From Acrocarpospora catenulata (lineage in GTDB: Bacteria > Actinomycetota > Actinomycetes > Streptosporangiales > Streptosporangiaceae), in the NCBI RefSeq assembly GCF_018476525.1, contig NZ_JAHCST010000018.1, forward strand, positions 1 to 64,000: DNA of 64,000 nt, written 5' to 3'. The position numbers were made by a program, and so were the translations under genes. The notes below the pieces were generated by a model that made no database searches, was not told the DNA's origin, and saw nothing but the letters and a program-made list of their open reading frames with translations. Each line of letters starts with the position of its first letter. The first letter of the stretch is position 1. Of the stretch, positions 3,503-32,082 are shown piece after piece.

Positions 3503-3522
3503 CACTTCGGTAGAGTCGCCAC

Positions 3523-6825: not shown

Positions 6826-6884
6826 GACGCCGCCGGCAAGTGGCAGCCAAGCCGCCCTCAAGCCCGCTCCGCGAAGGTGTCGGC

Positions 6885-7589: not shown

Positions 7590-7627
7590 GCCCGGCGCAG
7601 CGGAATGGTGAACGTGCCCGGCGGCCC

Positions 7628-7897: not shown

Positions 7898-8007
7898 GTC
7901 CTGTGGTTCGGGGGCCAATGTTTCCCTCTCTCCCTGAAACAGCTGCGCGCTGTCCCCGGCGATATGAGATGGTGCGCTCAGACGGCCGACTCTTCGGAGG
8001 ATACCCA

Positions 8008-8478
8008 ATGCCCCGTTCCAACCGACGCCTTCTCGTACGGATCGGCGCGATACTTGCGGTGGCCGCTCTGGTTGTGGTGACCGCGCTGTACATGATTGGC
8101 TCCCCCCGTGAACAGGAACCAACGGCCGCCGAGGCGGGCGAAACCCTGAAGAAAGACATCCTTAAACTGCTCGAAGAGGTACGTGCTCGAAACATCCAGG
8201 TCACCGATCCTGGAGGTAAGGATGTTCCCTGCGGGAACGACGAGGTTAAACGCACCTTTGCTGCCACTGGTCTGGATTCCGCGCCGGAGCGGGAACCCAG
8301 CACTCTGAACTACATCATGATAGGCGCTATGGATCGGGTCGCCGACTACGCCCTCACCGACGTCCTGGACGAGCCGATTCGCATGGAAAACGAATCCACG
8401 AAAACAGCCATCCTGCTGAAGTCCACTGACGGAACTTATTCGGTGCAGGGCGAGACTGAGTGCCTCAGTCGGTCATGA
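8008..8478 (+). CDS. Membrane-anchored hypothetical protein
   Basis: A 156-residue protein with one N-terminal transmembrane helix (residues 9-31, preceded by basic residues) and an extracellular domain of about 120 residues. Two cysteines, in DVPCGND and GETECLS, probably form a disulfide. The start is fixed by a strong GGAGG ribosome site a few bases before the ATG. I recognise no family. It sits between two minus-strand genes with WXG-like features and converges with the larger one, the 3' ends overlapping by 14 bp. A partner role, for example immunity or anchoring, is speculation. Confidence 0.72.
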   Translation: MPRSNRRLLVRIGAILAVAALVVVTALYMIGSPREQEPTAAEAGETLKKDILKLLEEVRARNIQVTDPGGKDVPCGNDEVKRTFAATGLDSAPEREPSTLNYIMIGAMDRVADYALTDVLDEPIRMENESTKTAILLKSTDGTYSVQGETECLSRS

Positions 8479-10678: not shown

Positions 10679-12787
<2,109 letters not shown>

Positions 12788-17875: not shown

Positions 17876-18384
17876 GCCGCCGCCCGGTCGAGCAGCGCGG
17901 CCAGCCGGTGCAGGGCCCGCGCGGTCCGCGCCTTGATCGTGCCGAGCGGGACGTCCAGCCGGGAGGCGATCTCCCGCTGGGTCAGCTGCCCGTAGTAGGC
18001 CAGCTCGATGGCCTGCCGCTGCGCGGCGGGAAGCCCGGCCAGCGCGCGCCGCACGGCGTCCCGCTGGTCGAGGCGGGCGGGCAGGTCCAGATCCTCGCTC
18101 GGCTCCGGCGCCGCGTCGAGCGGGACGGCGGCAGGGGGGCGGGCCCGCAGGTAGTCGATCGCCCGGTTGCGGGCGATGCCCTGCAACCACCCTTCCAGGC
18201 TGCGGGCCGGGTCGTAGCGGCCGCGGCACCGCCAGACCTCGGCGAAGACGACCTGCGAGACGTCCTCGACGTCCTGGGGCGGCACGAAGTGGCGGAGGTA
18301 GGCCCGGACGAGCGCGGCGTGCTCCCGGAAACACTCCGTCACCGCGTCTTCCTCGCCTGCCGCGAGGCGGAGGCCCAGCTTCAT
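17872..18384 (-). CDS. ECF-type RNA polymerase sigma factor, LitS-like by context
   Basis: A 170-residue sigma-70 family factor with only regions 2 and 4. Region 2 runs from about 15 to 85 (VEDVSQVVFAEVW, GWLQGIARNRAIDYLRAR) and region 4 from about 112 to 165 (LPAAQRQAIELAYYG, QREIASRLDVPLGTIKAR). The ATG at 18384 is preceded by GGGAGG at good spacing, better than an upstream TTG at 18414. It lies 78 bp downstream of a B12-type MerR gene and beside a photolyase. That arrangement matches LitR/LitS control in other actinomycetes, where light releases LitR repression and the sigma factor drives carotenoid or photolyase genes. No anti-sigma gene is present. Confidence 0.88.
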   Translation of the reverse strand: MKLGLRLAAGEEDAVTECFREHAALVRAYLRHFVPPQDVEDVSQVVFAEVWRCRGRYDPARSLEGWLQGIARNRAIDYLRARPPAAVPLDAAPEPSEDLDLPARLDQRDAVRRALAGLPAAQRQAIELAYYGQLTQREIASRLDVPLGTIKARTARALHRLAALLDRAAA

Positions 18385-18462
18385 GACGACCTCCCAACTG
18401 GGAAACTTACTCAAAACCTATTCATAGTCGCCCGTGGCCGATTATGCAAGGAACAGCAGTGA

Positions 18463-19536
18463 TCAGCGCAGCGCCGCGAGAATCCGGGAGATCGCCTCGT
18501 TCATCGAGGTCAGGTGGGTGATCGTGGGCGGGACGCCGTACCAGCCGGGGCCGCCGGTCAGCAGCGGGCTGGGCGGGCGGAGCACCGGCAGCCGGGTCAG
18601 CGGCTCGGGGTCGCCTGTCTCCGCCCGCTGCGACCAGACGACCACCAGGGCGGGGCCGAGCCGCCGCATCGCGTCCGCCAGCGCCGAGTACGGCGTGCGC
18701 GCGCCCAGCACCCGGACCTCCACCGCGTGCTCCGCGGCCAGGGCGGCGGCCAGCGCGAAGATCGGCAGGCTGTGCTGCTCGTCCTCGGCGCAGGCGAGCA
18801 GGACCGGACGGGGATGGATCGGCCGCGCGGGCCGCCCGATCAACGCGCCGAACGCCGTCATCAGCCGTTCGGTGAACAGGTGCTCCACATCCACCCCGAC
18901 GCCCGTGGCGGCCTGCCGCCGGCTGATCGCCGCGAACACCGGCCGGACCAGCCGGTCCCAGGTCTCGGCCACCCCGAACCTGCTCAGACCCCAGGCGACG
19001 ATCTCCGACACCGTCCACGAGTCCAGCGCCATCGCGGCCCGCCCCAGCCGCCCGGCCTCCCGCTCGACCGAACGTTCCCGGGACGCCGGGGGGATCTCCG
19101 CCAGGAACGCCGGATGCGCAGGCCCCTCGCCGACCCCGCGACCCGCCGGGACAGCCGTTTCCGCACCAGCCTCGCGACCGGCCTGGGCCGCCGTTTCCGC
19201 ACCGGCCTCGCGATCCGCGGTGGGTGCCGGGACCGCCGATTCCTCCTCGCCCCCGCGCCCCCCTGGTGTTCCCGCCTGCGGCTCCACCGGAAGCGACCGG
19301 ATGCGCAGGGCCGCCTGCGCGGCCTCCGCCGGTGGCACGCCCGCCTTGATCAGGCGGCTCATCTCCTCCAGCCGGCGCAGATCGAGCGCCCCGTACCGCC
19401 GGTGGCCGCCGGGACTCCGGGAACTCGGCCCGATGCCGTACCGGAGGTTCCAGGTCCGCAACGTGGGCGCGGGCACCCCGAGCCGCCGCGCGACCGCCCC
19501 GATCCCGTAACTCGGGGAGCTGTCCTCGTCCGCCAT
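18463..19536 (-). CDS. MerR-family regulator with cobalamin-binding domain, LitR/CarH-like
   Basis: A 357-residue regulator. The N-terminal MerR winged helix (about 8-75) reads GAVARRLGVPAPTLRTW and GGHRRYGALDLRRLEEM. A low-complexity Ala/Gly/Glu linker of about 60 residues follows. The C-terminal half resembles the helical-bundle plus B12-binding domains of LitR/CarH, with VEHLFTERL and ACAEDEQHSLPIFAL. The latter has the E-x-H-x-x-P form of the cobalamin-ligand motif seen in actinomycete LitR proteins. Known relatives bind adenosylcobalamin and leave DNA on illumination. The start is supported by GGAGGTGA 8 bp upstream. It is divergent to the photolyase gene and upstream of the sigma factor. 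Confidence 0.87.
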   Translation of the reverse strand: MADEDSSPSYGIGAVARRLGVPAPTLRTWNLRYGIGPSSRSPGGHRRYGALDLRRLEEMSRLIKAGVPPAEAAQAALRIRSLPVEPQAGTPGGRGGEEESAVPAPTADREAGAETAAQAGREAGAETAVPAGRGVGEGPAHPAFLAEIPPASRERSVEREAGRLGRAAMALDSWTVSEIVAWGLSRFGVAETWDRLVRPVFAAISRRQAATGVGVDVEHLFTERLMTAFGALIGRPARPIHPRPVLLACAEDEQHSLPIFALAAALAAEHAVEVRVLGARTPYSALADAMRRLGPALVVVWSQRAETGDPEPLTRLPVLRPPSPLLTGGPGWYGVPPTITHLTSMNEAISRILAALR

Positions 19537-19567
19537 GAGCGTGGTTCACCTCCGTCCCGGACGTTCC

Positions 19568-19577
19568 TGGTCGACCA
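19568..19577. promoter_or_regulatory. Palindrome in the regulator/photolyase intergenic region
   Basis: TGGTCGACCA is a perfect 10-bp palindrome 31 bp upstream of the MerR-type start and inside the 214-bp divergent region before the photolyase gene. It is a candidate half or whole operator for the LitR-like protein. The site type is inferred from position; LitR operators vary and no second copy was found nearby. Confidence 0.35.
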
Positions 19578-19750
19578 AGGTCGTGACTGACAAATCATGC
19601 CGTGTCGGAGGCTCACCGCATCCTTCGGACACCGCTGGGTGGGACGCCGAGTTCTCCGGGTGTCGCCTGGACGCGCATATCGGCTACTTCGGACGCCGCC
19701 CGGACGTGGATGCAACCCACCGGGCAGGACGCTCGAAGGGTGTTGTCGTG

Positions 19751-20959
19751 ATGGACACCGTCATCGTGCTGTTCAACCGCGACCTGCGGATTCACGACCA
19801 CCCGGCGCTCGCCGAAGCCTGCGCGCAGGCGCGGCAGGCGGTCCCGCTTTTCGTGCTCGATCCGGATATTTCCCCGCGTGGGAGGGTGGGCTTCCTGGCC
19901 GAGTCCCTGGCCGACCTGCGTACCTCGCTCCGCGAACGCGGTGGCGACCTGATCGTCCGCAACGGGGATCCGGTGGCGGAGACGGTGAAGCTCGCCCGCG
20001 AGACTGGAGCCACCGCCGTGTTCGCCTCGGCGGACGTGAGCGAATATGCCCGGAAACGCGAACGCCGCCTGGCCGCCGAACGGCTGGAACTCCGGCTCTT
20101 CCCAGGGGTGACCGTGGTTCCCCCTGGCCTGCTCACGCCCGCCAACGGGGATCACTACAAGGTGTTCACGCCGTACTGGCGAGTCTGGTCGCACACCCGC
20201 TGGCGGGAGGTTGTGGCGGCGCAGGAACGCATCGCGCTGCCACCGGACCTCGAACCAGGCGAAATCCCGGACGGCGCGCCCAGGCCATACCTGCCGGGCG
20301 GGGAGACCGCCGCCCGCCAGCGCCTGGACCACTGGCTCCACCGCCTCGACGACTACGCCGACGGCCACGACGACCTGGCCGGGGACCGCACCTCCCGGCT
20401 CAGCCCCTACCTGCGCTTCGGCTGCCTCTCACCCCTCGAACTCGCCCGCCGCACGAGCCGGAACGAGGACTTCGTCCGCCAACTCTGCTGGCGCGACTTC
20501 TACCACCAGGTCGCCCACGCCTTCCCCGCCATCTCCCGGCGCGACTACCGCCCGCGCGACCGCGACTGGCGCCACGACGAGGACCTCGCCCAGGCCTGGC
20601 GCGAAGGCATGACCGGCGTCCCGATCGTCGACGCCGGAATGCGCCAGCTCGCCGCCGAAGGCTGGATGCACAACCGAGCCCGCATGATCGTCGCCTCCTA
20701 CCTCACCAAAACCCTCGGCCTGCACTGGAAGATCGGCGCCGACCACTTCGCCGCCCTCCTCCTCGACGGCGACATCCCCAACAACTACGGCAACTGGCAA
20801 TGGTCCGCCGGCACCGGCAACGACACCCGCCCCAACCGCGTCCTCAACCCACTCCGCCAGTCCAAACGCTTCGACCCCGAGGGCGACTACATCCGCAGAT
20901 ACGTCCCCGAACTCGAGCACCTCTCCCCCCGAGAAATCCACGAACCCCGCAGCCTGTGA
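19751..20959 (+). CDS. phr: Class I deoxyribodipyrimidine photolyase
   Basis: A 402-residue photolyase that uses FAD and blue light to split cyclobutane pyrimidine dimers. The N-terminal Rossmann-like antenna domain (1-130) starts TVIVLFNRDLRIHDHPAL. The C-terminal FAD domain contains RLSPYLRFGCLSP, QLCWRDFYHQ, IVDAGMRQLAAEGWMHNR and GNWQWSAGTGNDTRPNR. The latter motifs match CPD photolyases more than animal-type cryptochromes. The ATG at 19751 is chosen because it begins exactly at the conserved first strand; the upstream open frame has no homology. It is divergent from the LitR-like gene, so light-induced expression through the regulator/sigma pair is expected. Confidence 0.95.
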   Translation: MDTVIVLFNRDLRIHDHPALAEACAQARQAVPLFVLDPDISPRGRVGFLAESLADLRTSLRERGGDLIVRNGDPVAETVKLARETGATAVFASADVSEYARKRERRLAAERLELRLFPGVTVVPPGLLTPANGDHYKVFTPYWRVWSHTRWREVVAAQERIALPPDLEPGEIPDGAPRPYLPGGETAARQRLDHWLHRLDDYADGHDDLAGDRTSRLSPYLRFGCLSPLELARRTSRNEDFVRQLCWRDFYHQVAHAFPAISRRDYRPRDRDWRHDEDLAQAWREGMTGVPIVDAGMRQLAAEGWMHNRARMIVASYLTKTLGLHWKIGADHFAALLLDGDIPNNYGNWQWSAGTGNDTRPNRVLNPLRQSKRFDPEGDYIRRYVPELEHLSPREIHEPRSL

Positions 20960-20967
20960 GCACGACC

Positions 20968-22128
20968 TCACGGTGCTGGAATGCGGACGGTTTCCACCCA
21001 GGCGGGGGGCTCCAGTGAGTCGGGGCGGATCAGGACGGCGATGAGGCGGCAGGAAGAGGGTTCGGCAGGCCAGGGGGTGTGGCCGTCGGTGAGGGTGATG
21101 ATCACGTGGGGACGGTCGGGCGCGGCGAGGGCCGCGGTGATGCCGACGCGCATGTCGGTACCACCGCCGCCGGCGAGGGTGACCTGGTCGACGGAGGTCA
21201 CCCGGGAGACGGCGTGGACGTCGGCGTCGCAGGCCAGGACGGTGACGCGGTTGCCGCGGACGCCGACTTCGCGGAGCACCCCGGTGACTTCGGTCAGGGC
21301 CGTGGCGAGTTCTTCTTCGCCCATGGAGCCCGAGGTGTCGATGACGATGGCCACACGCGGGAGCGGGCGGCGCAGGCTGGGCAGCACGACGCCGCGCAGG
21401 GCGGACGTACGGCGGGACGGGCGCCGGTAGGTGTAGTCGATCGCGCCACCGGCCCAGGCGACCGCCTCGCGGACGGCTCCGGCCAGCATGCGCCGCCAGT
21501 CCACGACAGGTTCGAGAACCTGGTCCGCCCAGCGCCTCCACCCCTCAGGGAGCGTCCCCCGCGCCCGCCGGTGGGCGCGCATCGCCTCGGCGGTCTGGCG
21601 GCGGAGGGCGTCCGCCTCGACCGGGCCGAGCCGGGCGGGACCCTCGCCGAGTTCCCAGGGCACCGCGTGGCCGTGCGCACCGGAACCGCAGTCGAGCAGG
21701 TGGGTCTGCGACGGCAGGTGGGGGACGTACTCCTCGAACAGCCCTCCCGTGGGCAGGCCGAACAGGCCGGGCTCCATCCGGCCGGGTGGCAGGGGCAGGT
21801 GGTCGGCGAGGAGGTCGTCGTTGATCTCGCAGTCCTGGGCGATGTTGATCCGGAGCCGGTCCCGCTGGTCGGCGGCGGGGAGCCGGTCGGCGCGGCCGTG
21901 GTGGTCGCGGAGCAGGTGCGCCACCTCGTGGATCCAGACCGCGGCGAGCTCCGGTACGGGCGTGGCGGCCACGAACGCGGGCGACACGTAACAGCGCCAG
22001 TGCCGGTCCACGCCCATGGTGGGCACCCGCTCGCTGGGCACGATCGACAGCGCGTACAGGGCGGTGGCGAGATAGGGCCGGTCGGTCGCCGCGCGGTAGC
22101 GGGCGGCGAGCAGCTTGACCCGGTCCAC
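20968..22128 (-). CDS. Metallopeptidase-like protein with C-terminal VWA domain (DUF2201-type)
   Basis: A 386-residue protein. The N-terminal half has a zincin-type HExxH motif (WIHEVAHLLRDHH, about residue 75) and the conserved QDCEINDDL that follows in DUF2201-like proteins. The C-terminal VWA domain (about 255-380) has a MIDAS metal site, DTSGSMGEEE, then GGGGTDM and TLTDGHTPWP. VWA proteins of this type work with MoxR-class AAA+ ATPases, as in RavA-ViaA or NorQ-NorD. Here the start (GTG) lies 2 bp after a MoxR remnant, so it is the last gene of the SDR-LRR-ankyrin operon. Whether the HExxH site cleaves protein is not known. Confidence 0.85.
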   Translation of the reverse strand: MDRVKLLAARYRAATDRPYLATALYALSIVPSERVPTMGVDRHWRCYVSPAFVAATPVPELAAVWIHEVAHLLRDHHGRADRLPAADQRDRLRINIAQDCEINDDLLADHLPLPPGRMEPGLFGLPTGGLFEEYVPHLPSQTHLLDCGSGAHGHAVPWELGEGPARLGPVEADALRRQTAEAMRAHRRARGTLPEGWRRWADQVLEPVVDWRRMLAGAVREAVAWAGGAIDYTYRRPSRRTSALRGVVLPSLRRPLPRVAIVIDTSGSMGEEELATALTEVTGVLREVGVRGNRVTVLACDADVHAVSRVTSVDQVTLAGGGGTDMRVGITAALAAPDRPHVIITLTDGHTPWPAEPSSCRLIAVLIRPDSLEPPAWVETVRIPAP

Positions 22129-22130
22129 GG

Positions 22131-22901
22131 TCAGCCCAGCGCGCCGGAGAGCTTGAGCAGGTCGAGGAAGCCGTCGATGCCGCTCGGCACCGGCCAGTCG
22201 GTGTCGCGCAGCGCCGCCAGGTCTGTGGCGGCCCTGGCCGCCACGTCGGGCACGCCCGCCTCGACGGCCTTGGCCAGCACCGCCCACCCCGCCTCCCAAC
22301 GGCGCCGCGTCAGGTCGCCCTGGACGGCGGCGACCACGGCGGTGAGGAAGGCGAGCTGCCGGTCGCCGCGGGTGGGCAGGGCGAAAGCGCCGGGGTCGGC
22401 GAGCACCCGGTCGGGGTCGGGCAGGTCGAGCTGGTCGAGGTAGGCGACCAGCTCGATGCCGGCGCCGTCGCCGACCGCGCCGACCAGCGCGGCCGCCAGC
22501 GCCTCCCCGCTCGCCTCCCCACTGGCCTCGGTCGCATAGCCGACCGCGAGCAGTCGCAGCGCCATCTCCCAGGTGCGCGGCGACGGCCAGGCCCCGCCGC
22601 GGCCCTCGGCGTCGGCGGGCAGGTGGTGCACCAGGCCGGGCCGGGCGGTGAGGAACCCGGAGATCGCGCCCCGGGCGCGCGCGACCGCGCCGGACACCTT
22701 GGCCGGGTCGACGCGGGGGATGGACACCGCGGGCCAGGTCCCCGCCAGGCCGCGGGCGACCGTGCGAGAGTCGTGCGTCCAGCGCAGGTGGACGAACCGG
22801 TTGGCCAGCGGCGGACTCAGATGCCAGCCGTCGGCGGCGCTCGACGGCGGGTTGGCCGCCGCGACGATCCGCACCGGTTCCGGGAGGGTCAGGCTGCCCA
22901 C
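22131..22901 (-). pseudogene. MoxR-family AAA+ ATPase, 5'-truncated (no Walker A or B)
   Basis: A 256-residue open frame that begins in the middle of a MoxR-type ATPase. The first residues (GSLTLPEPVRIVAAANPPS) are the sensor-1 region, followed by ANRFVHLRW and the C-terminal lid. Intact members have roughly 130 further residues before this point with the P-loop and Walker B. Homology starts at or one codon before the GTG at 22901, and an in-frame TGA lies just upstream, so the 5' part is gone rather than mis-called. The fragment overlaps the end of the ankyrin gene by 13 bp. ATP binding is not possible from this piece; a residual structural role beside the VWA protein is conceivable but unsupported. 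Confidence 0.65.
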
Positions 22902-24460
22902 CCGTCACCCAGGGACCATCCCCCGTCGTCGACCACGTCGATGCGCGCCCCGGCGTCGAGCAGCGCCCGGACCAGCGCCGTCGAACCGTAGTCGCCAACG
23001 GCCACGTGCAGGGGCGTACGTCCGAAATGGTCCTGAGCCTCCAGGTCCACTCCCGCCGCGAGCAGCCGGGAGAGCAACCGCTCATGGTCGAGCAGGTGGA
23101 GCGAGTGCAGGAGGTTCCGCCGCCTGCCGTCCTGTAGATGGGGGGACATCCCGGCATCGAGGAGCCGCAGCACTCCGGGGGTGTCCCCGTGCTGGACGCG
23201 CAGGAAGAAATCGTTCCGCTGCGCGCGCAAGGCCTTGGGCAGCCATCCCGTTCCGGACGTCCATGCCTGCTGTACGGCGAAGCACCCGGCCACCGCGCCG
23301 CCGAACGCCCGCATGGCGCGCTCGCGTTGCTGCTCCACCTCGGTGTGCGGGAGGTGGAGCGTACTGCCGGTGGCACGCACCTCGTGCCACTCGCCACGAC
23401 ACCGAACCCGGACCGGAGCGGGCGGTTCGGGATCGGGCGGCCCGGCGGGACCGGCCGGATGCCGGGGGAACAGGGCGTCGCGGACCAGCGGGTGCAGACG
23501 CTCCGGAACCGTACGGCCGTGGTGGAGCAGGTCGAGGTCGGGCAGACGTCGCCAGCAGGCGGTCGCCAGCAGGGGGAGGTCCCCGATGTCGTGGTCCCTG
23601 ATCAGCTTGACGCGCAGGCGTCCCGTGTCTTCGTGACGTTCGAGCATCAGGGAGGTGTACCGGTACCGGAGGTAGCAGCGGCCGCCGAGTCGCTGGGTCT
23701 CCGGGCCGAGCCGGGTGAGGGCCAGCGGGATCCAGTCCAGAACCCGGAACGGGTTGGACTCCCAGCACCGCATGTCCGGCCCCGTGGTCTCGAACTCGAT
23801 GTCCGCCGCGGCCAGGGCCGCCTCGATCTCGCCCCGCTCGTGCAGCGTGGTCACCCATTCCGTGTGCGCGGCCGGGTCGTCGCCGGTGGGGGGTGTGGCC
23901 GGCACCGCGCGCGGGCTGCCGTCGGCGTTGAAGAACGGGGGTCGGTCGCCACCTCCGCAGCGCTCAAGCAGGTCGGCGGAGTGCCATGCGTCCCACAGAT
24001 GCCGCGCCACGGACCAGTCCTGGACGTTGTGGCGCCGGTGGGGGGATCGCAGCCTGGGGCTGATCTCGCCGACCCGCAGGGTGAGCCGTTGCGGCCCGTC
24101 GGGAAACACGGGTGCGGTGAGGTGAAGACTCAGCCCGCCCGGCAGGGGCGAGCTGAGAATGATCACCTGCCCGGGCTCGATGGTCGAGTAGCCGTGCCGG
24201 ACCCGGGGGAGGTGCCAGCGCAGCAGATCCGGGGTGAACGCGTGGAGGTCGTCCTCGATCGCGTCCGCGAACTCCCGGCCGTACGCCTGGGCCAGCTCGG
24301 ACAGGGTGAACGTGACATCCACGTTGGCGGCGGCGCAGGCGCCCTGCCAGTCCCCGGCCAGGCGGTGAGCGGTGGCCTGTTCGATCATCGAGCGAGGCAC
24401 CGCGTACTGGCGGATCCGCTGCCAGCTCGCCGCCTCTTCGGGTGGACAGGAGAGGGTCAA
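22889..24460 (-). CDS. Ankyrin-repeat protein with large unassigned N-terminal region
   Basis: A 523-residue protein. Residues 1-400 are unrecognised, Trp/Arg-rich and soluble; they contain one internal near-repeat theme around ACAAANVDVTFT and ALAAADIEFETT. The C-terminal 120 residues carry about three ankyrin repeats (DTPGVLRLLDAGMSP, FGRTPLHVAVGDYG, ALVRALLDAGARIDVVD). The last repeat stops abruptly in SLGDGWAA just where the MoxR remnant begins, so the C-terminus may itself be truncated by the same deletion. Its ATG overlaps the LRR stop (ATGA), implying translational coupling. It probably mediates protein-protein contact; the target is unknown. Confidence 0.78.
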   Translation of the reverse strand: MTLSCPPEEAASWQRIRQYAVPRSMIEQATAHRLAGDWQGACAAANVDVTFTLSELAQAYGREFADAIEDDLHAFTPDLLRWHLPRVRHGYSTIEPGQVIILSSPLPGGLSLHLTAPVFPDGPQRLTLRVGEISPRLRSPHRRHNVQDWSVARHLWDAWHSADLLERCGGGDRPPFFNADGSPRAVPATPPTGDDPAAHTEWVTTLHERGEIEAALAAADIEFETTGPDMRCWESNPFRVLDWIPLALTRLGPETQRLGGRCYLRYRYTSLMLERHEDTGRLRVKLIRDHDIGDLPLLATACWRRLPDLDLLHHGRTVPERLHPLVRDALFPRHPAGPAGPPDPEPPAPVRVRCRGEWHEVRATGSTLHLPHTEVEQQRERAMRAFGGAVAGCFAVQQAWTSGTGWLPKALRAQRNDFFLRVQHGDTPGVLRLLDAGMSPHLQDGRRRNLLHSLHLLDHERLLSRLLAAGVDLEAQDHFGRTPLHVAVGDYGSTALVRALLDAGARIDVVDDGGWSLGDGWAA

Positions 24461-25587
24461 CGGTAGAGGCTTCCGATCGCGCGCAGGTCGGGATGGGCGG
24501 GGGCGGCTGGGCGCAGGCGGAAGGAGCGCTTCAGCTTGCGTGGCACGCCGGGGCCCAGGCCCACGTACTCCAGGCGGGTGTCGGCGGGGACGTGCGCCAG
24601 CAGGGATTTCGCGCCGCGCCCGGTGATCCCGGTGTGGCGGAGTTCCAGGCGGCGGAGCGGGCTGCCGGGCAGGGCGGTGGCCAGCGCTTCCGCCCCGGCG
24701 TCGCCAGTGATGTTGGCGGGCGCGCCAAGGCCGCGTTCCGACGGGGGCCGTCCCAGGTCGAGGGAGTCGATCCCGTCCAGGGCCTCGGCCAGGGCCCGCG
24801 CGCCGTACGGGCCGATTCCGTTGCCGCCCAGGCCGAGCCGTACCGGCCGGGCGGGATCGACGGCGGCCGCGAGGGTGGCCGCGCCCTCGTCGCCCAGGTG
24901 GTTGGCCGGGAGGTAGAGCTCGCGGACGCCCGTGTCGCGGATCAGCGCGGCCAGCAGTGGCGCGGCGTCGCTACTGAGGCCGTTTCCGCCGAGGAAAAGG
25001 CGTTCGAGCGGATATGGCCTGTTCATCAGGGCGGTGACCAGGACAGTCAGGCCCTCGGCGGTGAGTCCGGTATTGACCAGGTCGAGGGTGCGGAGGGCGG
25101 TGTTGCGGCGCAGCATCGCGGCCAGCGCGGCGACGCCCGCGTCGCCTGTCGGGTTGCGCTTGAGCCACAGGGCACGGACGGTGTCGTCCTCGGCCAGGCG
25201 GTCGGCCAGCGCCTGCGCCCCGGCGGCGTCGATCCGGTTGCAGCCGAGGTAGAGCGTGTGGACCCGGTGCCCGGGCGTCAGCACGTCGGCGAGCGCCCGC
25301 GCCCCCGAGTTCCCGATGGCGTTGGTGCCCAGCAGTAGGTGGCGGGCGTGCGGCGAGGCGGCGGCGACGGGCAGCAGCCGGAGCACCCCCGCCGGGCCGA
25401 GCCCCTGCTTGCACAGGTCCACCCGGCCGTCCGGTCGCAGGGCGCCCAGGGGGAAGGTCTCGTCGGTCTCGACCGGGGCCGGGTCGGCCAGCCGGGCCAG
25501 GAGCGGATCAAGCCCGGCCGGGTCGGCGGGCGGCACGTCGGGGTGCTCGATCGCCGGGCAGCGCACGGGGGTCTGCTTCACGCTCAC
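24457..25587 (-). CDS. Leucine-rich-repeat (ribonuclease-inhibitor type) protein
   Basis: A 376-residue protein made of about nine RI-type LRRs of roughly 28 residues, for example LYLGCNRIDAAGAQALADRL and LWLKRNPTGDAGVAALAAML. The N-terminal 70 residues are a non-repeat cap with a Pro-rich start. This fold gives a horseshoe that binds another protein. The start is the GTG at 25587, which overlaps the SDR stop by 4 bp (GTGA); the longer open frame upstream lies over the SDR gene and has no LRR character. Tight overlaps on both sides place it in one translationally coupled operon. Confidence 0.85.
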   Translation of the reverse strand: MSVKQTPVRCPAIEHPDVPPADPAGLDPLLARLADPAPVETDETFPLGALRPDGRVDLCKQGLGPAGVLRLLPVAAASPHARHLLLGTNAIGNSGARALADVLTPGHRVHTLYLGCNRIDAAGAQALADRLAEDDTVRALWLKRNPTGDAGVAALAAMLRRNTALRTLDLVNTGLTAEGLTVLVTALMNRPYPLERLFLGGNGLSSDAAPLLAALIRDTGVRELYLPANHLGDEGAATLAAAVDPARPVRLGLGGNGIGPYGARALAEALDGIDSLDLGRPPSERGLGAPANITGDAGAEALATALPGSPLRRLELRHTGITGRGAKSLLAHVPADTRLEYVGLGPGVPRKLKRSFRLRPAAPAHPDLRAIGSLYR

Positions 25588-26960
25588 CACTCCACCGGTC
25601 GGTAGTCCTTGAGGAACAGGCCGGATACCGGCCGGCCGCCGACACCCCGCACGATCGGGTCGTACACCCGCGCGGCCCCGTCGATGACGTCCAACGGCGG
25701 GCGGAACCCCGCCGCGCGCTGCGCGGTCTTCTCCGGATACGGCCGTTCGTCGGTCACCCATCCGGTGTCCACGCTGTTCATGTGGATCCCGGCTGCGGCG
25801 TAGTCGGCGGCGGCTGTGCGGGTCAGCATGTTCAGGGCGGCCTTCGCCATGTTCGTGTGCGGATGCCGTACGGTCTTGTGCGTCCGCGAGAAGCTGCCCT
25901 CCATGGCCGAGACCTGCACCACGTACCTGTCGGGGTACGGCGAGGCCGCCAGCAGCCCGCGCAGCCGCGAAGTGAGCAGGAACGGCGCGAAGGCGTTCAC
26001 CAACTGCGCTTCCAGCCACTCCGCGGGCTCCACTTCGTGCAGCCGCAGACTCCAGCTGTTACGTTCCCGCAGGTCCAGCGGTTGCCCGGTCTCGTCGGCG
26101 CGACCGGCGGGGAACAAAGACTCCAGTTCGGCGACCGGCTTGCCCGGCAGGGCAGGGGGTAACGCCGCGACGGCGCCCGTCACGTCGATCCGCGCGGCGA
26201 GTCCGCGCAGTGGCTCGCTCTCGGCCGAGCGGACCTCGCGGTAGTAGGCGGCGGGCCTGCGGATCGTCTGGGCCGCGTTGTTGACCAGGATGTCGAGGTG
26301 GTCGAAGCGCTGGTGCACCGAGTCGAGCAGACCGGCCACCCCGGCGAGGTCGAGCAGGTCCACGCCGTGGATGTGCAGGCGCGCCAGCCAGTCCTGGCAG
26401 TCCCGCACGGCCGCGAACCTGCGGGCGGCATCGCCGGGGAAACGGGTGGTGACCAGCACCTCGGCGCCGTCCCGCAACAGCTTCAGCGCCACCTGAAAGC
26501 CGATCTTCACCCGGCCTCCGGTGACCACCGCCCGGCGTCCCCGCAGATCGCATCGGGCGTGGCGGCGGATGAGGTTCTCCTGCGCGCACTCGGGGCAGAG
26601 CAGGTGGTAGTCGGGGTGAACCTCGCGGTAGCCGGCCTTGCAGACATAGCACCGCCGGACACCGAGCAGAGCCCGCTGCGCTGGCACGCCGCCGCTCGCG
26701 GGCGCGTCCGGCGAGGGATCCTGCTGCCGGTAGCGCTCGGTGGCGGCGGTGACCTGCCGATCACGTTGCCTCCGGTCGGTGTGGCGGGCGGCCTTCCGGG
26801 ATTTCTTGCCCGCGCGGTAGACCTGGGCGACGGCCTGGTGCACGGCCGCCCAGCGCGGATCGGCGGGGTCCGCCGTACTCGCCTGGGCCAGTACCCGCAG
26901 ACAGGCCTCGACATCCGGCTCGGCAGGGACGCCCGTGACACCACCAGGGCTGACAGCCAT
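25584..26960 (-). CDS. Short-chain dehydrogenase with N-terminal zinc ribbon
   Basis: A 458-residue SDR-fold protein. An N-terminal helical region (1-110) rich in Arg/Lys is followed by a zinc-ribbon-like pair, RCYVCKAGY and LLCPECAQ. The Rossmann domain follows with GGRVKIGFQVALKLL (an atypical Gly motif), ILVNNAAQ and a plausible catalytic Ser/Lys region (VQVSAMEGSF, TNMAKAALNML). The active-site Tyr of the usual YxxxK is not obvious in the latter, so catalysis needs testing. It starts the LRR-ankyrin-MoxR-VWA operon; ATG at 26960 follows GGGGGG, and an ATG 12 bp further up is possible. Only 23 bp separate it from the tRNA-like gene upstream. Confidence 0.8.
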   Translation of the reverse strand: MAVSPGGVTGVPAEPDVEACLRVLAQASTADPADPRWAAVHQAVAQVYRAGKKSRKAARHTDRRQRDRQVTAATERYRQQDPSPDAPASGGVPAQRALLGVRRCYVCKAGYREVHPDYHLLCPECAQENLIRRHARCDLRGRRAVVTGGRVKIGFQVALKLLRDGAEVLVTTRFPGDAARRFAAVRDCQDWLARLHIHGVDLLDLAGVAGLLDSVHQRFDHLDILVNNAAQTIRRPAAYYREVRSAESEPLRGLAARIDVTGAVAALPPALPGKPVAELESLFPAGRADETGQPLDLRERNSWSLRLHEVEPAEWLEAQLVNAFAPFLLTSRLRGLLAASPYPDRYVVQVSAMEGSFSRTHKTVRHPHTNMAKAALNMLTRTAAADYAAAGIHMNSVDTGWVTDERPYPEKTAQRAAGFRPPLDVIDGAARVYDPIVRGVGGRPVSGLFLKDYRPVEW

Positions 26961-26983
26961 CCATCCCCCCATCGCGGAAGCGG

Positions 26984-27056
26984 CACGGCTGGTCGGATTC
27001 GAACCGACGTCCTCCAGCTTGCTGCTAAGGCGCGACGACCTCTGCGCTACAGCCGT
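26984..27056 (-). tRNA. tRNA-like gene with irregular anticodon arm
   Basis: The 73-nt sequence has a perfect 7-bp acceptor stem (ACGGCTG with CAGCCGT), TA at positions 8-9, a 4-bp D-stem (GCGC/GCGC) and a canonical T-arm (GTCGG-TTCGAAT-CCGAC). The acceptor pairing extends outward to a perfect 11-bp inverted repeat. Between the D- and T-arms there are only 21 nt. They fold at best into a bulged stem with loop CAGCAAG, which lacks the invariant U33. No anticodon can be assigned. It may be a tRNA pseudogene or a non-coding tRNA-like RNA. Confidence 0.6.
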
Positions 27057-27200
27057 GCCGCCCCGAAAGAGTAGCGCCTTTCCGGATCTTCATCGCGGTA
27101 CGGCCATGTTCGAAAAAGCGGCCATTTTTGTTCGAATTGACGTATGTTGGCCGAGAGACCGTCACATTGGTCACACACGCAACTGTGAGGTGATTCCGCG

Positions 27201-27764
27201 ATGCGGAAGATCATTTTGTGGATGTCCGTCTCGCTCGACGGCTACATCGAGGGGCCGAACCGGGAGATCGACTGGCACATGGTCGACGAGGAACTGCACA
27301 GCCACTTCAACGACCGGCTGAGAAACATGGGCGGCTTCCTGAGCGGCCGCGTCACCTACGAGCTGATGGCCGACTTCTGGCCGACGGCCGACGCCGACCC
27401 GGCGAACGCCGGCCCGGTCGCCGAATACGCCGGAATCTGGCGGGACATGCCAAAGATCGTTTACTCCCGGACCCTGGAAACCGCGGACTGGAACACCACC
27501 ATCGTCCGAGACGTGATCCCCGAGGAGGTCCAGGCCCTCAAGGCCCAGCCAGGCGGAGACCTGTCACTGGGCGGCTCCGACATCGTCGCGCCCTTCCTCC
27601 ACCACAACCTGATCGACGAGTTCAACCTCTACATCCACCCGGTCACCATCGGCAGAGGCAAGCCCTTGTTCCCCGAGACAGACGCGAGAACCCAACTCCG
27701 CCTCACCGACACCCAGACCTTCGGCAACGGGGTCATCCGCCTGAACTACGTACGCGTCGAATGA
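27201..27764 (+). CDS. Dihydrofolate-reductase-like (RibD C-terminal family) protein
   Basis: A 187-residue protein of the RibD_C/DHFR-like superfamily. It starts MRKIILWMSVSLDGYIEGPN and has the NADPH-binding region DLSLGGSDIVAPFL, then IHPVTIGRGKPLF, both typical of stand-alone actinobacterial members. These are NADPH-dependent reductases of unknown substrate; a true role in folate synthesis is not implied. The start has a GAGGTGA site 7 bp upstream. The leader region contains two TTCGAA palindromes about 24 bp apart, which might bind a regulator. Confidence 0.88.
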   Translation: MRKIILWMSVSLDGYIEGPNREIDWHMVDEELHSHFNDRLRNMGGFLSGRVTYELMADFWPTADADPANAGPVAEYAGIWRDMPKIVYSRTLETADWNTTIVRDVIPEEVQALKAQPGGDLSLGGSDIVAPFLHHNLIDEFNLYIHPVTIGRGKPLFPETDARTQLRLTDTQTFGNGVIRLNYVRVE

Positions 27765-27797
27765 GTCCTCGCCAGGTTTCATGGTTGGGGACAACCG

Positions 27798-30224
27798 TCA
27801 CTGGTGTGCCGGATTCCTTTCCAGGATTCGGGCATGCAGGGCGCGGGCGCGGGGGTCGTCAAAATCGTCCAGCGCGGCCAGCGCCTCACGTAGGTAGGGG
27901 GTGGTGTCCTCGCCGGTTCCGGCCTGTTCGACTGCCGTGGCAGCGTTCTCCAGAGCGACCGCCAGTTGCCACGGGTCGGCCAGTTCGCGGTGGGTGGCGG
28001 CCGCGCGGCGGTGGAACTCCAGGGCCTCGGCGTGGCGGCCCAGCTTCCGGTAGGCCTCGCCCGCGGCGTCCAGCGCGCGTGCCTCGCGGCTGCGGTCGCC
28101 CAGGCGCCGGTGGATGCTCGCTGAACGCTGAAAGGAGACCAGGGATTCGGCGGATTCGGCGGATTCGGCAGCGTCGCCGCCGCTGAGCAGCACCTTGCCG
28201 TGTTCCAGCAGCCAGTACGCCTCCCACATCGGGTTGCCACGGTCACGCGCGATGGCGAGTGCCTGCTCGATGTGCTCCCGCGCCAAGGCGTTCCGGCCGG
28301 ACTCCCGATAGACCATCGACAGGATCCGAAGGGTGTTGCCCTTCCTGTCGGCGTAGTTCAGGCGGTGGAAGTAGTCGAGTGCGCGCGCGGCGGACTCCGC
28401 GGCGGCGTCGAGGTCGCCGAGCTCGAAGTTGATCTCGGCCAGGTTCGCCCGCACGGTCATCTCCCAGTTGGGCGCGTTCAGTGTCGCCAGCAGCGCCACG
28501 CTCTGCTCCAGGTGCGCGTGGGCCTGCGCCAACCGGCGGCGGCGAAGGGCCACCAGCCCGAGGGAGTTCAGCGAGAGCGCCTCGCCGAGGCGGTCGCCCA
28601 GCTCCCGCCAGAGGCCGAGCGCTCGCTCGTGCTGTTCCGCGCCCATGTCGAGTTGGTGGGACTGGACGTACGCCTTTCCCAGGCTGTCCAGGACCTCCGC
28701 CTCGCCATGCCGGTTCCCGGCGCGGCGAGCGGCTTCCAGACCGGACGTCGCCATCGCGAACCATGGCTCGAAGGTGTTGAACCGGCCGCAGTAGCTCCGG
28801 GTGACGGCGGCCAGTTGCCAGGCGAGGTCGTCCAGCCCCACCCGCGCCGCCGTGCGGACGGCGGCCGTCAGATTGGCGAGCTCGTCCTGGAACCAGCGCA
28901 GCGCCTCGGGGTAACCGGGAAACACCATGGCGCCGGTCACCATGGACTCGTCCACCCGGATCGGCCGATCGAACGGTGCCAGCCTCTCCTGCGCCCGGGC
29001 CGCGCTGTGCAGGTACCAGGTGATCACCCGCCGCAGCACGGCGTGGCGGCTCTCCGCGCTCTCCTCGGCCGCGGCCTGGTCCATCGCGTAGGCGCGCATC
29101 AGGTCGTGGAACTCATACCGGTCAGGTGCGGTCTGTTCGAGCAGGTACGCCCCCACCAACAGGTCGAGAATCTGCCTGACCTGCTCGGGTGTGCTTCCCA
29201 CGGTCGCGGCGGCGGCCGGTGCGCCGAACTCGGGGCCGGGGTGCAGGCCCAGCAACCGGAACGACCGGGCCGCCGGTTCCGGCAGTGCCCGATAGGACCA
29301 GGCGAAGACCGTGCGCACCGCGTCGGCCTCGTCGCCGTCTTCCGCGGTGAGCGCGTCCCACAGGGCCGACTCGTCGCGTAGGTCCCGGATCAGATCGCGA
29401 AGTGGCATCCACGGTCGGCTGGCGGCCCTTTCTCCGGCGATCCGCAAGGCCAGCGGAAGCCTGGCGCAGAGCCTCGCCAGCTCGGCCAGCTCCGCCGGGG
29501 AGTCCGCTTTCCGGTAGGGGGCGGTCACATTCCTGATCAGGTCCAGCGAGTCTGCCTCGGCGAGGAAGTCGACCGGAACACGGTTGGCCCCGTCCCTGGC
29601 CACCAGGCCGGACAGGCGGTTCCGGCTGGTCACGATCACCAGGCAGGTGTCGGTGCCGGGCAGCAGAGGGCGCACCTGGGCCGCGTTCGCCGCGTTGTCC
29701 AGGACGATCAGCATCCGCCGTCCCGCGAGCCGCGACCGGTAGAGCGTGGCGCGGTCCTCCAGTTCCGGCGGGATCGCGCCCACCGGCACGTCGAGCGCGC
29801 GCAGGAACCGGTCCAGGACCTCCTTTGCGGTGATCGGGGCGCCTGGGTCGTAGCCGCGGAGGTTCATGTAGAGCTGGCCGTCGGGGAAGCGGGGGGCGAT
29901 CTGGTGTGCCCAGCGCAGCGCGAGTGCGGTCTTGCCCACCCCGGCGGTTCCGGCGATGACGCAGACTCCCGCGGATCGGTAGAACTCCCCGTCGAGGATG
30001 AGCGCACTGCCGAGTTGCTCCAGCTCGTTCACCCGGTTGACGAAACCTCGCACGTCGCCGGGCAGCTGGCGCGGGATGTGATGCTCCGGCGGGTGGGGGC
30101 CGTGGAAGTGCACCCCACCGCTCACGTCCCGCGCCTGGACGACGTCGCCGGCGTTGCCGGACAGCTCGGAGTGCGTGTTCTCCCCGTGCGGGCTGCCTGG
30201 ACCGTCCGGCCTTCTGGGCCACAT
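27798..30224 (-). CDS. STAND-type NTPase: NB-ARC domain with TPR repeats and amyloid-like N-terminal motif
   Basis: An 808-residue signal-transduction NTPase. The N-terminus carries SGNAGDVVQARDVSGGVHF (about 22-40), a short motif found ahead of many actinobacterial NB-ARC and trypsin-like proteins and resembling RHIM-like bacterial amyloid signalling motifs. The NB-ARC domain has Walker A GTAGVGKTA (92-100), Walker B MLIVLDNAANA and the sensor region IVTSRNRLSGL. A winged-helix linker and about nine TPR-like repeats (490-800) follow. No SARP DNA-binding domain is present, unlike AfsR. The ATG shares one base with the upstream DUF6879 stop (TGATG), so it ends a three-gene coupled operon. Role inferred: ligand-triggered assembly in conflict or development signalling. 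Confidence 0.83.
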   Translation of the reverse strand: MWPRRPDGPGSPHGENTHSELSGNAGDVVQARDVSGGVHFHGPHPPEHHIPRQLPGDVRGFVNRVNELEQLGSALILDGEFYRSAGVCVIAGTAGVGKTALALRWAHQIAPRFPDGQLYMNLRGYDPGAPITAKEVLDRFLRALDVPVGAIPPELEDRATLYRSRLAGRRMLIVLDNAANAAQVRPLLPGTDTCLVIVTSRNRLSGLVARDGANRVPVDFLAEADSLDLIRNVTAPYRKADSPAELAELARLCARLPLALRIAGERAASRPWMPLRDLIRDLRDESALWDALTAEDGDEADAVRTVFAWSYRALPEPAARSFRLLGLHPGPEFGAPAAAATVGSTPEQVRQILDLLVGAYLLEQTAPDRYEFHDLMRAYAMDQAAAEESAESRHAVLRRVITWYLHSAARAQERLAPFDRPIRVDESMVTGAMVFPGYPEALRWFQDELANLTAAVRTAARVGLDDLAWQLAAVTRSYCGRFNTFEPWFAMATSGLEAARRAGNRHGEAEVLDSLGKAYVQSHQLDMGAEQHERALGLWRELGDRLGEALSLNSLGLVALRRRRLAQAHAHLEQSVALLATLNAPNWEMTVRANLAEINFELGDLDAAAESAARALDYFHRLNYADRKGNTLRILSMVYRESGRNALAREHIEQALAIARDRGNPMWEAYWLLEHGKVLLSGGDAAESAESAESLVSFQRSASIHRRLGDRSREARALDAAGEAYRKLGRHAEALEFHRRAAATHRELADPWQLAVALENAATAVEQAGTGEDTTPYLREALAALDDFDDPRARALHARILERNPAHQ

Positions 30225-30832
30225 CAACGGGTTCCCGCTTCGAGCCAGCGGCGGTGGCGATCGAAGAAGGAGGTGATGTCCTCACCTGCCGCGTAGAGGT
30301 CGGAAATCAGGTTCCGCCAGCGGGCGAGCAGACCGGGGTCGGTGTGACGGACGCCGCCGGCGAGCACTCCCGTTTCGTCATAGAGGACCTCGTACATCAC
30401 CGAGGAGCCCAGGGTGACGACTTCGGGAAGACCACGTCCAGTTTCCAGGTGCCGGATGGCATCGGGGCCGACGATTCGGACACACCCGCCGTACTCATGC
30501 CGGAGCCGGAGCAGATGAAGCTCCCACCGCAGGTAGGGGGTGACGGGTTCTTCGACCACGCGTACCCGCCAGGTGCGGAATCCGGCGCGGGCGATGCGTT
30601 CGTAATAGTTCTGGAGAGATTTGCGCCTTTGCTCTAGCAGTTGGAGTGACTTGTGCCAGTCGCCCTGGCGGAACGCTTCCCAGCTGTCGTCGCCTGGCTC
30701 CTGGAAGGTCTGCTGGCGCTCCAGCTTCCAGAAATCGTTGTCGCCGATCGTCCAGAAGTGCTCGGCGAAGTCGTTGCGATATTCCTCGATGGTCAGTCTT
30801 TCCCCACGCGATGCCTCAAGAAAATCAAGCAT
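30224..30832 (-). CDS. DUF6879 family protein
   Basis: A 202-residue protein with the family pattern FWKLERQQTFQEPGDDSW, WHKSLQLLEQRR, RVRVVEEPVTPYLRWELHL and the late LLARWRNLISDLYAAGE. These proteins are widespread in actinomycetes, often beside XRE regulators or small DUF397-type proteins; biochemical function is unknown. It overlaps the small upstream gene by 8 bp and the NB-ARC gene by 1 bp, so all three are made together. I infer that it is a partner or output of the NB-ARC switch. Confidence 0.85.
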   Translation of the reverse strand: MLDFLEASRGERLTIEEYRNDFAEHFWTIGDNDFWKLERQQTFQEPGDDSWEAFRQGDWHKSLQLLEQRRKSLQNYYERIARAGFRTWRVRVVEEPVTPYLRWELHLLRLRHEYGGCVRIVGPDAIRHLETGRGLPEVVTLGSSVMYEVLYDETGVLAGGVRHTDPGLLARWRNLISDLYAAGEDITSFFDRHRRWLEAGTR

Positions 30833-31148
30833 CCGGGATATCTGCTTTCGCTGCTATGAGCATGACGCGGGGGATGACCACGAGCTGCTCGTCGGCGGCG
30901 ATTGTCACACCTGTCGGCAGTTTGGCGCGGAAGGCGGTGGTGAGATCCCGTCCGATGACAGCGATGTCCCCATTATCGAGTTCCCATATGTCTGGACATC
31001 CGTCATCATTTCCGGTGCATCCCAGCTCAACCGCCGACTTGCCGAGTCTTCTGCTGAGTGTCGCCGACGCGTCGGCTTCCCATGCGCGAGTCACGATAAG
31101 TTCCTCCTCCGCGGAGCCGAACGGCCAATCGGAGCGTACATTCGACAT
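30825..31148 (-). CDS. Small hypothetical protein upstream of DUF6879
   Basis: A 107-residue protein. Its core (PDIWELDNGDIAVIGRDLT, then LVVIPRVMLIAAK) resembles small proteins that commonly precede DUF6879 genes, where an NGD-x-A-V-I-G motif recurs. The ATG at 31148 is preferred over 31187, because the first 13 residues of the longer form are unlike the rest. Its base composition is lower in GC than the genes around it. Function is unknown; the invariable pairing with DUF6879 suggests a complex. Confidence 0.7.
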   Translation of the reverse strand: MSNVRSDWPFGSAEEELIVTRAWEADASATLSRRLGKSAVELGCTGNDDGCPDIWELDNGDIAVIGRDLTTAFRAKLPTGVTIAADEQLVVIPRVMLIAAKADIPDA

Positions 31149-31218
31149 GACAGGAAGACAAGAATGCCCAAATGAGGTCATACACAATCACGAATATTGT
31201 GTTGGCCTCATCAAAGGC

Positions 31219-32082
31219 TCACCGATCAGGTGGAACCGCATCAACCGATTCGGTGACCCAGATAGGTCCGTCTGCGCAGTCGAACCGCAGGCCATTGGCT
31301 GGGTGCACACTGGTGCGTAACGCCGTGAGCCATTTATTGCCAATCTTGACATAAGGGCCGCGCAAGCCGAACAGATTGAAACGGAATGCGCGCACCTGGT
31401 TATGGGTCTCCCGGACACCGCGTGCGGGGTTCACGAACATGAAGTCCGGTTCCATCCATCCCGCGTAGCTGGCATCGCGATCGCTCTGGGGGTCGCCCGG
31501 GGCGCCGACTGCCGCGAGGTTCAGCGCTGGAACGAGCAACTCCTCGATCAGGTCGTCAACGTCTCGCCACAACGTGGCGGTGACGAGGTCCTCATCGATC
31601 CGGATTCCCCCGCGTTGTACCAGGATGTTCCCCGAGTCGAAGTCGTCGTTCATCCAGTGGATGGTGACCCCCACCTCGGGGTCTCCATTGCGCACGGCCC
31701 AGTGCACGGGGATCGGCCCCCGATACTTGGGTAGCAGCGACGGGTGCACGTTAATCGCGCCCAGGCGGACCGACCGCCGCACCTCCGGAGGAAGCTTCCA
31801 GGGGAACCCGTACGTCACGATCAGATCGGCCTGATAGCCGGCCAGCATCCTGGCGAGGCCGTCCGTCGTTCCGGGCAGCAGCAGATCCATGCCAGGGGGA
31901 AGCGATTCGGCGATTGCCTCAATGGCCGCGGCAGAAGGCTTACTGGTCGGCCTGTTCTGACGGAGCGAGCGGGCATGGACCATCGCGACCGGAAGGTGTC
32001 CGGCATTCTTGCAAGTTTCATACAGCAGCCTGAAGGCACTGGTGGCAAAGGAGATGAGAACCAAGCGCAATACGTTGGCCAC
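31219..32082 (-). CDS. Formyltransferase-like protein (Fmt/PurN fold)
   Basis: A 287-residue protein of the formyltransferase fold. The N-terminal Rossmann half holds the catalytic signature INVHPSLLPKYRGP with Asn and His of the active-site triad, followed by FDSGNIL with the Asp. These match methionyl-tRNA and sugar-amine formyltransferases that use 10-formyltetrahydrofolate. It is shorter than housekeeping Fmt and lies outside a def-fmt context, so a dedicated substrate such as an amino sugar is more likely. GTG start with GGGAG 7 bp upstream. It sits in a lower-GC stretch (about 31.0-32.5 kb) that looks acquired. Confidence 0.82.
   Translation of the reverse strand: MANVLRLVLISFATSAFRLLYETCKNAGHLPVAMVHARSLRQNRPTSKPSAAAIEAIAESLPPGMDLLLPGTTDGLARMLAGYQADLIVTYGFPWKLPPEVRRSVRLGAINVHPSLLPKYRGPIPVHWAVRNGDPEVGVTIHWMNDDFDSGNILVQRGGIRIDEDLVTATLWRDVDDLIEELLVPALNLAAVGAPGDPQSDRDASYAGWMEPDFMFVNPARGVRETHNQVRAFRFNLFGLRGPYVKIGNKWLTALRTSVHPANGLRFDCADGPIWVTESVDAVPPDR

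Follow-up and report, generated by a model that had tools for sequence, protein, structure and literature searches.

MoxR-type AAA+ ATPases encoded beside von Willebrand factor A (vWA) proteins and extra partner genes have been described as ternary conflict systems in multicellular bacteria, including actinobacteria, and the MoxR-vWA couples in them were characterized as threshold switches (Kaur et al., PMC7159879). As for RNA, the closest parallel to a tRNA-like RNA that accompanies a response to tRNA damage is the rsr-yrlBA-rtcBA operon, in which the Y RNA YrlA is encoded beside the Rsr (Ro60) system (PMC7790460). In addition, tRNA-Other of Bacillus cereus was reported to be a pseudo-tRNA, a non-translational tRNA-like element within a larger RNA (PMC3399842). 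Here, we describe a locus of Acrocarpospora catenulata (contig NZ_JAHCST010000018.1, positions 1-64,000; this whole 64,000-nt stretch is called the window) in which a tRNA-like RNA (TLR) heads a row of five protein genes on the minus strand, encoding a short-chain dehydrogenase/reductase (SDR)-fold protein, a leucine-rich-repeat (LRR) protein, an ankyrin protein, the remnant of a MoxR-type AAA+ protein, and an HExxH-VWA protein. The TLR was overlooked in an earlier note on this DNA (the original prediction), and proved to be the most constant partner of the gene row. We propose, with a probability of roughly 45%, that the TLR is a tRNA-mimicking mRNA leader that marks a regulon of modules, and that the MoxR/HExxH-VWA pair is the ATP-driven effector of the full version.

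Chaperone pairing of MoxR and VWA proteins is known from RavA-ViaA and NorQ-NorD; to our knowledge, these pairs have no HExxH/DUF2201 domain, no RNA, and no LRR, ankyrin or SDR partners. A tRNA or tRNA-like element before protein genes in one transcript is familiar as well: metY, at the 5' end of the Escherichia coli nusA operon, is a working tRNA, and the thrS operator shows tRNA mimicry that is not a full cloverleaf. Unlike the TLR, neither of these elements is known to be common to several unrelated genes. Rsr, too, contains a vWA domain. The present locus nevertheless differs from the Rsr-YrlA system, because the Pfam hits of its five genes include neither TROVE nor an RtcA/RtcB-like protein, its VWA protein matches DUF2201_N, DUF2201 and VWA, and its RNA is a compact 78-nt cloverleaf at a predicted mRNA 5' end. 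tRNA-Other was described as a single element flanking an island (PMC3399842), whereas TLRs form a family that accompanies the same genes in different genera. Compared with the MoxR-vWA ternary systems, the locus has SDR, LRR and ankyrin partners, carries HExxH on the vWA protein itself, and is led by a tRNA-like RNA. VMAP, iSTAND, FtsH and beta-propeller domains were absent from the Pfam hits of the window genes, with no search aimed at each component, and the bpMoxR model scored 19.7 bits, below its cut-off of 27, against the MoxR protein of locus L003 from Acrocarpospora pleiomorpha. In the main text of the paper on ternary systems (PMC7159879), none of the terms "ankyrin", "leucine-rich", "DUF2201" and "short chain" appears, and searches of open-licence PubMed Central papers turned up no account of these genes having a leader that resembles a tRNA.

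The TLR lies at positions 26982-27059 on the minus strand and is called tRNA-Cys(gca) by ARAGORN. Against the Rfam tRNA family RF00005, whose gathering score is 29, it reaches 43.2 bits and ranks last among 57 matches to this family; an Rfam scan of positions 18000-32000 at E<=1 gave RF00005 only, and so no Y RNA family, one lower-scoring overlap of the same clan being left aside. The RNA folds as a cloverleaf with a 10-bp acceptor stem, a D-arm peculiar to the family, a tRNA-type T-arm, and a 5-nt loop, AGCAA, where the anticodon loop is expected. The TLR has the cloverleaf with D- and T-arms of tRNA type, GG in the D-loop and TTC in the T-loop both being invariant. It departs from an elongator tRNA in two marks, namely the 7-bp acceptor and, in the window and most other copies, the 7-nt anticodon loop with U33. 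For comparison, 40 stretches of the same genome around other RF00005 matches were searched, in which ARAGORN called 54 tRNAs. In none of these is the 7-bp acceptor extended by pairing at all three further positions (two of them pair in 5 tRNAs and one in 20), none has the TLR D-arm core, and U33 is present in 53. A second odd tRNA of this genome, Leu(gag) at G000:C13:62835-62908, lies near other tRNA matches, scores 49 bits against RF00005 and lacks U33 by the same test.

Relatives of the locus were collected by scanning species genomes with the MoxR piece of the window. Of 386 relatives obtained, only the 80 best were retained (loci L003-L082), with operon positions based on tblastn, since the picking of open reading frames (ORFs) used a crude GC-position filter. 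A pattern search of these 80 loci and the window recovered 79 TLR copies, 64 of them distinct, and a covariance model built from the copies finds 80, one of which has an insertion; the window TLR scores 103.7 bits with this model. Conservation is very uneven along the molecule. U8-A9 and the D-arm stretch are identical in 60 of the 64 distinct copies, and pairwise identity averages 99.4% in the D-arm stretch, 98.8% in the variable loop, 92.5% in the T-arm, 76-77% in the acceptor strands, and 61.8% in the anticodon arm; a nearly invariant D-arm is thus joined to a hypervariable anticodon arm. The fold is supported by covariation: 98.4% of 1216 cells pair, compared with 92.1% in shuffles (none of 500 as high), and for nine of the ten acceptor pairs there are one or more copies in which both partners differ. 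The three outer pairs form in 54, 63 and 62 of the 64 copies. Three other TLRs were folded singly. That of L005 folds as the window TLR does, that of L028 forms a cloverleaf in which the anticodon arm differs, and that of L047 forms no cloverleaf. A column test favoured a 5-nt loop for 47 of the distinct copies and a 7-nt loop for 10, and gave no assignment for the other 7; ARAGORN names TLRs for twelve amino acids, Cys, Sec, Asp and Arg among them, and leaves a few unresolved.

The linkage of the TLR to the LRR gene is near-obligate. Apart from 3 of the 72 LRR loci that begin inside the LRR gene, a TLR stands just upstream of the SDR or LRR gene in every case (69/69; two assigned by eye, where the extrapolated SDR start touches the TLR). 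Among 199 Streptomyces genomes, LRR relatives (E<=1e-60) occur at 18 places in 17 genomes, and at every one of these places a TLR scoring 98.8 bits or more lies in the 500 bp upstream; the sole further Streptomyces TLR above 98 bits (G379) precedes a solitary ankyrin gene, and with lower-scoring TLRs included, 52 of the 199 genomes carry one. Similarly, in 200 genomes of the window's order (the order sample), a TLR lies on the same strand within 4.5 kb upstream at 38 of 39 LRR places, singly at 23, in pairs at 11, in threes at 3 and as a group of six at 1. The link to MoxR depends on divergence. At MoxR identities of at least 76%, both TLR and LRR are near in 28 of 33 places of this sample, and in 3 of the 5 misses both are on another contig of the same genome; at 57-62% identity the two are near in none of 23 places, and below that in none of 12, the TLR search around MoxR groups having used E<=1e-9 and strict filters that weak TLRs may escape.

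Upstream of the window TLR, the -10-like box TACTCT (27068-27073, minus strand) ends 8 nt before the first TLR base. Such a box is common in the family. Of 108 distinct stretches upstream of a TLR, 103 contain TANNNT with its end 7-11 nt from the first base of the RNA, most often at -8 (62 stretches), compared with at most 9 of 108 in each of 200 shuffles and 0 or 1 in each of six equally wide control windows. The 3' end of the TLR is 21 nt before the SDR start, an ATG at 26960, and 9 nt before an alternative ATG at 26972, and the median gap from the TLR to the extrapolated first start is 42.5 nt in 18 SDR-first loci and 109 nt in 49 LRR-first loci. If the box is read rightly, transcripts would begin at or near the acceptor stem, with little or no RNase P leader, and a transcript that starts there and reads on would have the TLR as the structured 5' end of an mRNA. 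The control for the box bears on the transcript start and not on tRNA sensing.

The proteins behind the TLR fall into separable modules that have this element in common. Fifteen of 78 TLRs in the order sample are not beside LRR matches; they lie at fourteen places, of which ten were opened and four (G548, G611, G647 and G663) score below 66 bits. In the ten, the TLR precedes ankyrin genes in four (L189, L190, L191 and L237), an SDR gene alone in L240, an ORF of 196 residues without assigned function in L238, and no recognised gene in L188, L193 and L239, and two TLRs precede a diverged SDR-LRR pair in L187. Conversely, 11 of the 39 LRR places have no MoxR on the same contig within 16 kb. Five of these were opened, revealing TLR-SDR-LRR alone over about 7 kb in four (L250-L253) and an SDR-LRR pair with a leftover VWA fragment in L249. 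The TLR cores beside SDR-LRR in L249 and L251 have two and four substitutions, respectively, which may mean that RNA and unit degenerate jointly. Within a single operon of L186, TLRs precede the SDR, ankyrin and MoxR genes, and in L185 six TLRs lie in a row (10846-11589) upstream of the LRR gene and three ankyrin copies. Ankyrin genes may be expanded elsewhere too, as G662 has seven ankyrin-family N-terminal domains in a row (G662:C233:3845-14693) beside a MoxR gene at 2370-3527.

With regard to the proteins themselves, the SDR-fold protein (25584-26960, minus) begins with a zinc ribbon, whose first pair is kept in 24 of 24 copies, and matches Pfam adh_short at 1.8e-17. TGGRxKIG and NNAA, corresponding to the NAD(P)-binding glycine and NNAG-like motifs of classical SDRs, are present in all 24, and TNMAK replaces YxxxK at the catalytic place in all 24, which bears out the doubt voiced earlier about that motif. 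The LRR protein (24457-25587, minus; LRR_6, 2.1e-16) starts with a GTG that overlaps the SDR stop (GTGA). It is followed by the ankyrin protein (22889-24460, minus; Pfam ankyrin, 2.4e-9), the MoxR piece (22131-22901, minus), which matched no Pfam family, and the HExxH-VWA protein (20968-22128, minus), which is apparently intact and matches DUF2201_N (2.5e-26) and the VWA-like DUF2201 (1.3e-18). HExxH is kept in the 81 sequences shown of the 82 in the set, and the DxSxS, T and D of the metal-ion-dependent adhesion site (MIDAS) are kept in 82 of 82. The original prediction had placed all five genes on one strand and had given their junctions, and the strand, the GTGA, the 13-bp overlap (22889-22901) and the 2-bp gap are as it stated; the second junction is TTGA, with a TTG start, and not ATGA. 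Among PADLOC models, only the ankyrin repeats were matched (two models), the other four proteins having no match, and an NCBIfam scan led to nothing useful. Nearly the whole length of the HExxH-VWA protein of L003 (10759-11910) matches the phage family phrog_1314 at 2e-47; phages carry relatives of it, and the family's label, HNH endonuclease, looks wrong. Upstream of the unit, the translation of a large ORF (27798-30227, minus) reads like an NB-ARC/TPR regulator.

The ankyrin protein has an N-terminal domain of about 410 residues without recognised relatives. AlphaFold2 predicted the L003 ankyrin protein with a mean predicted local distance difference test (pLDDT) score of 90.7 over its full length and 89.0 for its N-terminal 412 residues. 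A Foldseek search of the predicted domain against PDB gave no match at E<=0.001 (best E 0.089), the best matches listed for the full protein being ankyrin-repeat proteins; Pfam matched none of 35 such domains at E<=0.05, and a profile search of PDB sequences gave no hit at E<=1.

The original prediction was correct in calling the MoxR gene a remnant, since, of 83 copies compared, only that of the window lacks GEPGIGK[ST], the other 82 retaining it. In a blastn comparison, positions 5308-9474 and 9998-11903 of L003 align to the window with 4 bp between them; at this junction (22904-22909, minus) the 4 bp stand for 523 bp of L003, a net loss of 519 bp, which took about 36 last residues of the ankyrin protein and the first 136-139 or so of 391 MoxR residues. 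What is left corresponds to approximately residues 136-391 of the 391-residue L003 relative, with the AANP region kept. Both Walker A and Walker B were inside the lost part, so that the ATPase core is gone and the motor is broken in this strain; the window genome is a 181-contig draft, in which an assembly error at this place is improbable. Five genomes of the genus were compared: one has an intact MoxR (L003), one the broken copy (the window), two have relatives of about 60% identity, one of which matches in two pieces, and one has no close copy. The relative in G001 (G001:C39:20919-22044) matches in two overlapping pieces and may carry a frameshift. A Walker A-intact MoxR beside a vWA protein is thus found in the relatives and not in the window, and because its MoxR lacks the ATP-binding core, the window copy would be an unfair test of the system.

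The gene row is a genuine unit, because its order recurs in many actinobacteria. The complete order SDR-LRR-ankyrin-MoxR-VWA was found in 20 of the best 80 loci, far beyond this strain, so the possibility that the genes occur together in this strain only, by which the original prediction would have fallen, was ruled out. A further 52 loci have LRR-ankyrin-MoxR without SDR in the fetched flank, 51 of them with VWA, while 6 have ankyrin-MoxR-VWA and 2 have MoxR-VWA. One of the six, L050, was grouped there only since its stretch is cut; it is evidently the same contig as L185, which agrees with it in length and ankyrin genes and has LRR and six TLRs. The unit is spread over many genera, but patchily, with LRR in 17 of 199 Streptomyces genomes and 39 of 200 genomes of the order. 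Clustering of the neighbours of the 80 loci and the window gave, beyond the operon genes, no cluster in more than 11 loci, although not every small cluster was checked. Outside the segment that runs from the TLR promoter to the VWA gene, the window and L003 do not align. We favour the reading that the locus is a mobile, modular actinobacterial unit. A phage- or plasmid-borne system was rejected, because the window TLR had no match in phage records, the TLR pattern had no exact match in viral contigs, and no LRR relatives were found in plasmids at E<=1e-5; TLR-like DNA occurs in 7 Streptomyces plasmid records, and the 4 opened have no neighbour in common.

Several explanations of the TLR and its genes were weighed together. 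That an ordinary tRNA gene merely served as the chance integration site of a genomic island is highly improbable. The unit does move, as the flanks of the window and L003 differ, and positions 27837-31497 of the window match contig C30 of genome G004, whose own unit is on C69; however, the genome of the window has two other tRNA-Cys(gca) genes among its 54 control tRNAs, the TLR is set apart by its 5-nt loop, its 10-bp acceptor and a D-arm of its own, and the same body recurs with many "anticodons" before the same genes. An ordinary tRNA or attachment site was therefore rejected on the fold and the own-genome comparison. The original prediction saw one machine of five proteins, whose LRR and ankyrin members select what MoxR/VWA remodels or HExxH cleaves; on this view the neighbouring tRNA would be irrelevant. 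This agrees with the conserved gene order, the preserved HExxH and MIDAS motifs, and the description of MoxR-vWA pairs as chaperone couples in conflict systems (PMC7159879). Yet the proteins split into independently occurring modules while the RNA stays. Ankyrin, SDR and SDR-LRR genes occur without MoxR/VWA in the stretches opened, and so an outcome that the original prediction had named as refuting it came true in part; with separate modules and a broken motor in the window, an obligatory machine was not borne out, and we regard this explanation as improbable. Alternatively, the TLR could be the RNA subunit of a ribonucleoprotein, bound by the ankyrin N-terminal domain, LRR or SDR protein and remodelled by MoxR/VWA, as with Ro60/Rsr and Y RNA. 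The RNA stays with the SDR, LRR and ankyrin genes where MoxR/VWA is absent, and its body is conserved as a binding surface would be; no RNA-binding domain was recognised, however, and more distant ankyrin-MoxR systems have no detectable TLR, which makes such a particle rather unlikely.

TLRs might also be separate small bait RNAs, whose varied anticodon arms imitate tRNAs to absorb or report attack by anticodon nucleases, the proteins answering a cleaved TLR. Anticodon arms that vary around a fixed body, two or more copies within 4.5 kb upstream at 15 of the 38 linked LRR places, a box of its own for each of the six L185 copies, 7-nt loops with differing anticodons in several copies of multi-copy loci, and many orphan TLRs with no gene behind them all argue for baits. 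The 47 distinct copies that fit a 5-nt loop make most of the family poor anticodon mimics, however, and TLRs stand directly before genes, in L186 inside an operon, where the three internal copies have no box. We thus consider baits an unlikely explanation, though one to be reckoned with.

For the leader reading, the strongest support is that the TLR accompanies SDR, LRR and ankyrin genes in several separate arrangements and was not found beside the more distant MoxR groups. A transcript would start at or near the first TLR base and run into the genes, so that SDR-LRR, SDR and ankyrin modules each would have a TLR leader of their own, to which the full system would add the MoxR AAA+/HExxH-VWA remodelling pair. 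A factor that acts on tRNA (a processing enzyme, a tRNA-cleaving nuclease, or a protein of the module itself) may recognise or cut the leader and thereby set the expression of a stress or conflict response, which the MoxR/VWA pair would execute. Fold, linkage and modularity are borne out by the comparisons above, and the transcription start itself, action in cis, sensing of tRNA, and remodelling of LRR or ankyrin partners are inferred.

A number of observations weigh against this proposal. The most serious are that TLRs occur in multi-copy arrays whose members have separate -10 boxes, and that there are orphan TLRs; baits acting in trans would explain both better. The six TLRs of L185, with their own boxes and different arms, are more than a cis leader needs. 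Among 11 solitary Streptomyces TLR places that were opened, 2 have an ankyrin gene (L195 and L242), 1 has an SDR gene (L246) and 8 have no recognised module gene; among 29 orphan TLR entries, in which two places are counted twice, a crude filter found no ORF in the same direction within 350 nt for 11. Exceptions to the linkage are G671, where SDR-LRR on a 5.5-kb contig has no TLR-like match upstream; G641 and G570, which have MoxR of at least 76% identity without TLR or LRR; and L023, L024 and L032, which have ankyrin-MoxR-VWA without LRR or detectable TLR. In addition, the copies are related, and hence the counts are not independent events, and the predicted fold of the ankyrin N-terminal domain offers no functional clue. 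As to the orphan Streptomyces TLRs themselves, two arm types are repeated (loci L149, L175, L178, L180 and L150, L169, L170, L172, L174, L176, L177, L179), one of them Trp CCA-like, and no common neighbour gene was seen.

These data indicate that calls by tRNA finders hide a structured RNA family that is distinct in D-arm, acceptor length and loop. The large domain of the ankyrin protein is predicted with high confidence, and Foldseek found nothing similar to it in PDB at the threshold given above. Since the RNA, and no protein, is the constant link between the modules, it points to a regulon or ribonucleoprotein that protein-only annotation does not see. It may be, although we put this forward tentatively, that a family of tRNA mimics with a fixed body and a hypervariable anticodon arm opens mRNAs of actinobacteria, tags separable modules (a zinc-ribbon pseudo-SDR, LRR, an ankyrin protein of new fold, and MoxR/HExxH-VWA), and senses attack on or mishandling of the tRNA pool, as a new class of gene control or immunity. 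The question thus opened is whether an mRNA that begins with a decoy tRNA would allow tRNA damage to be read out directly as gene expression.

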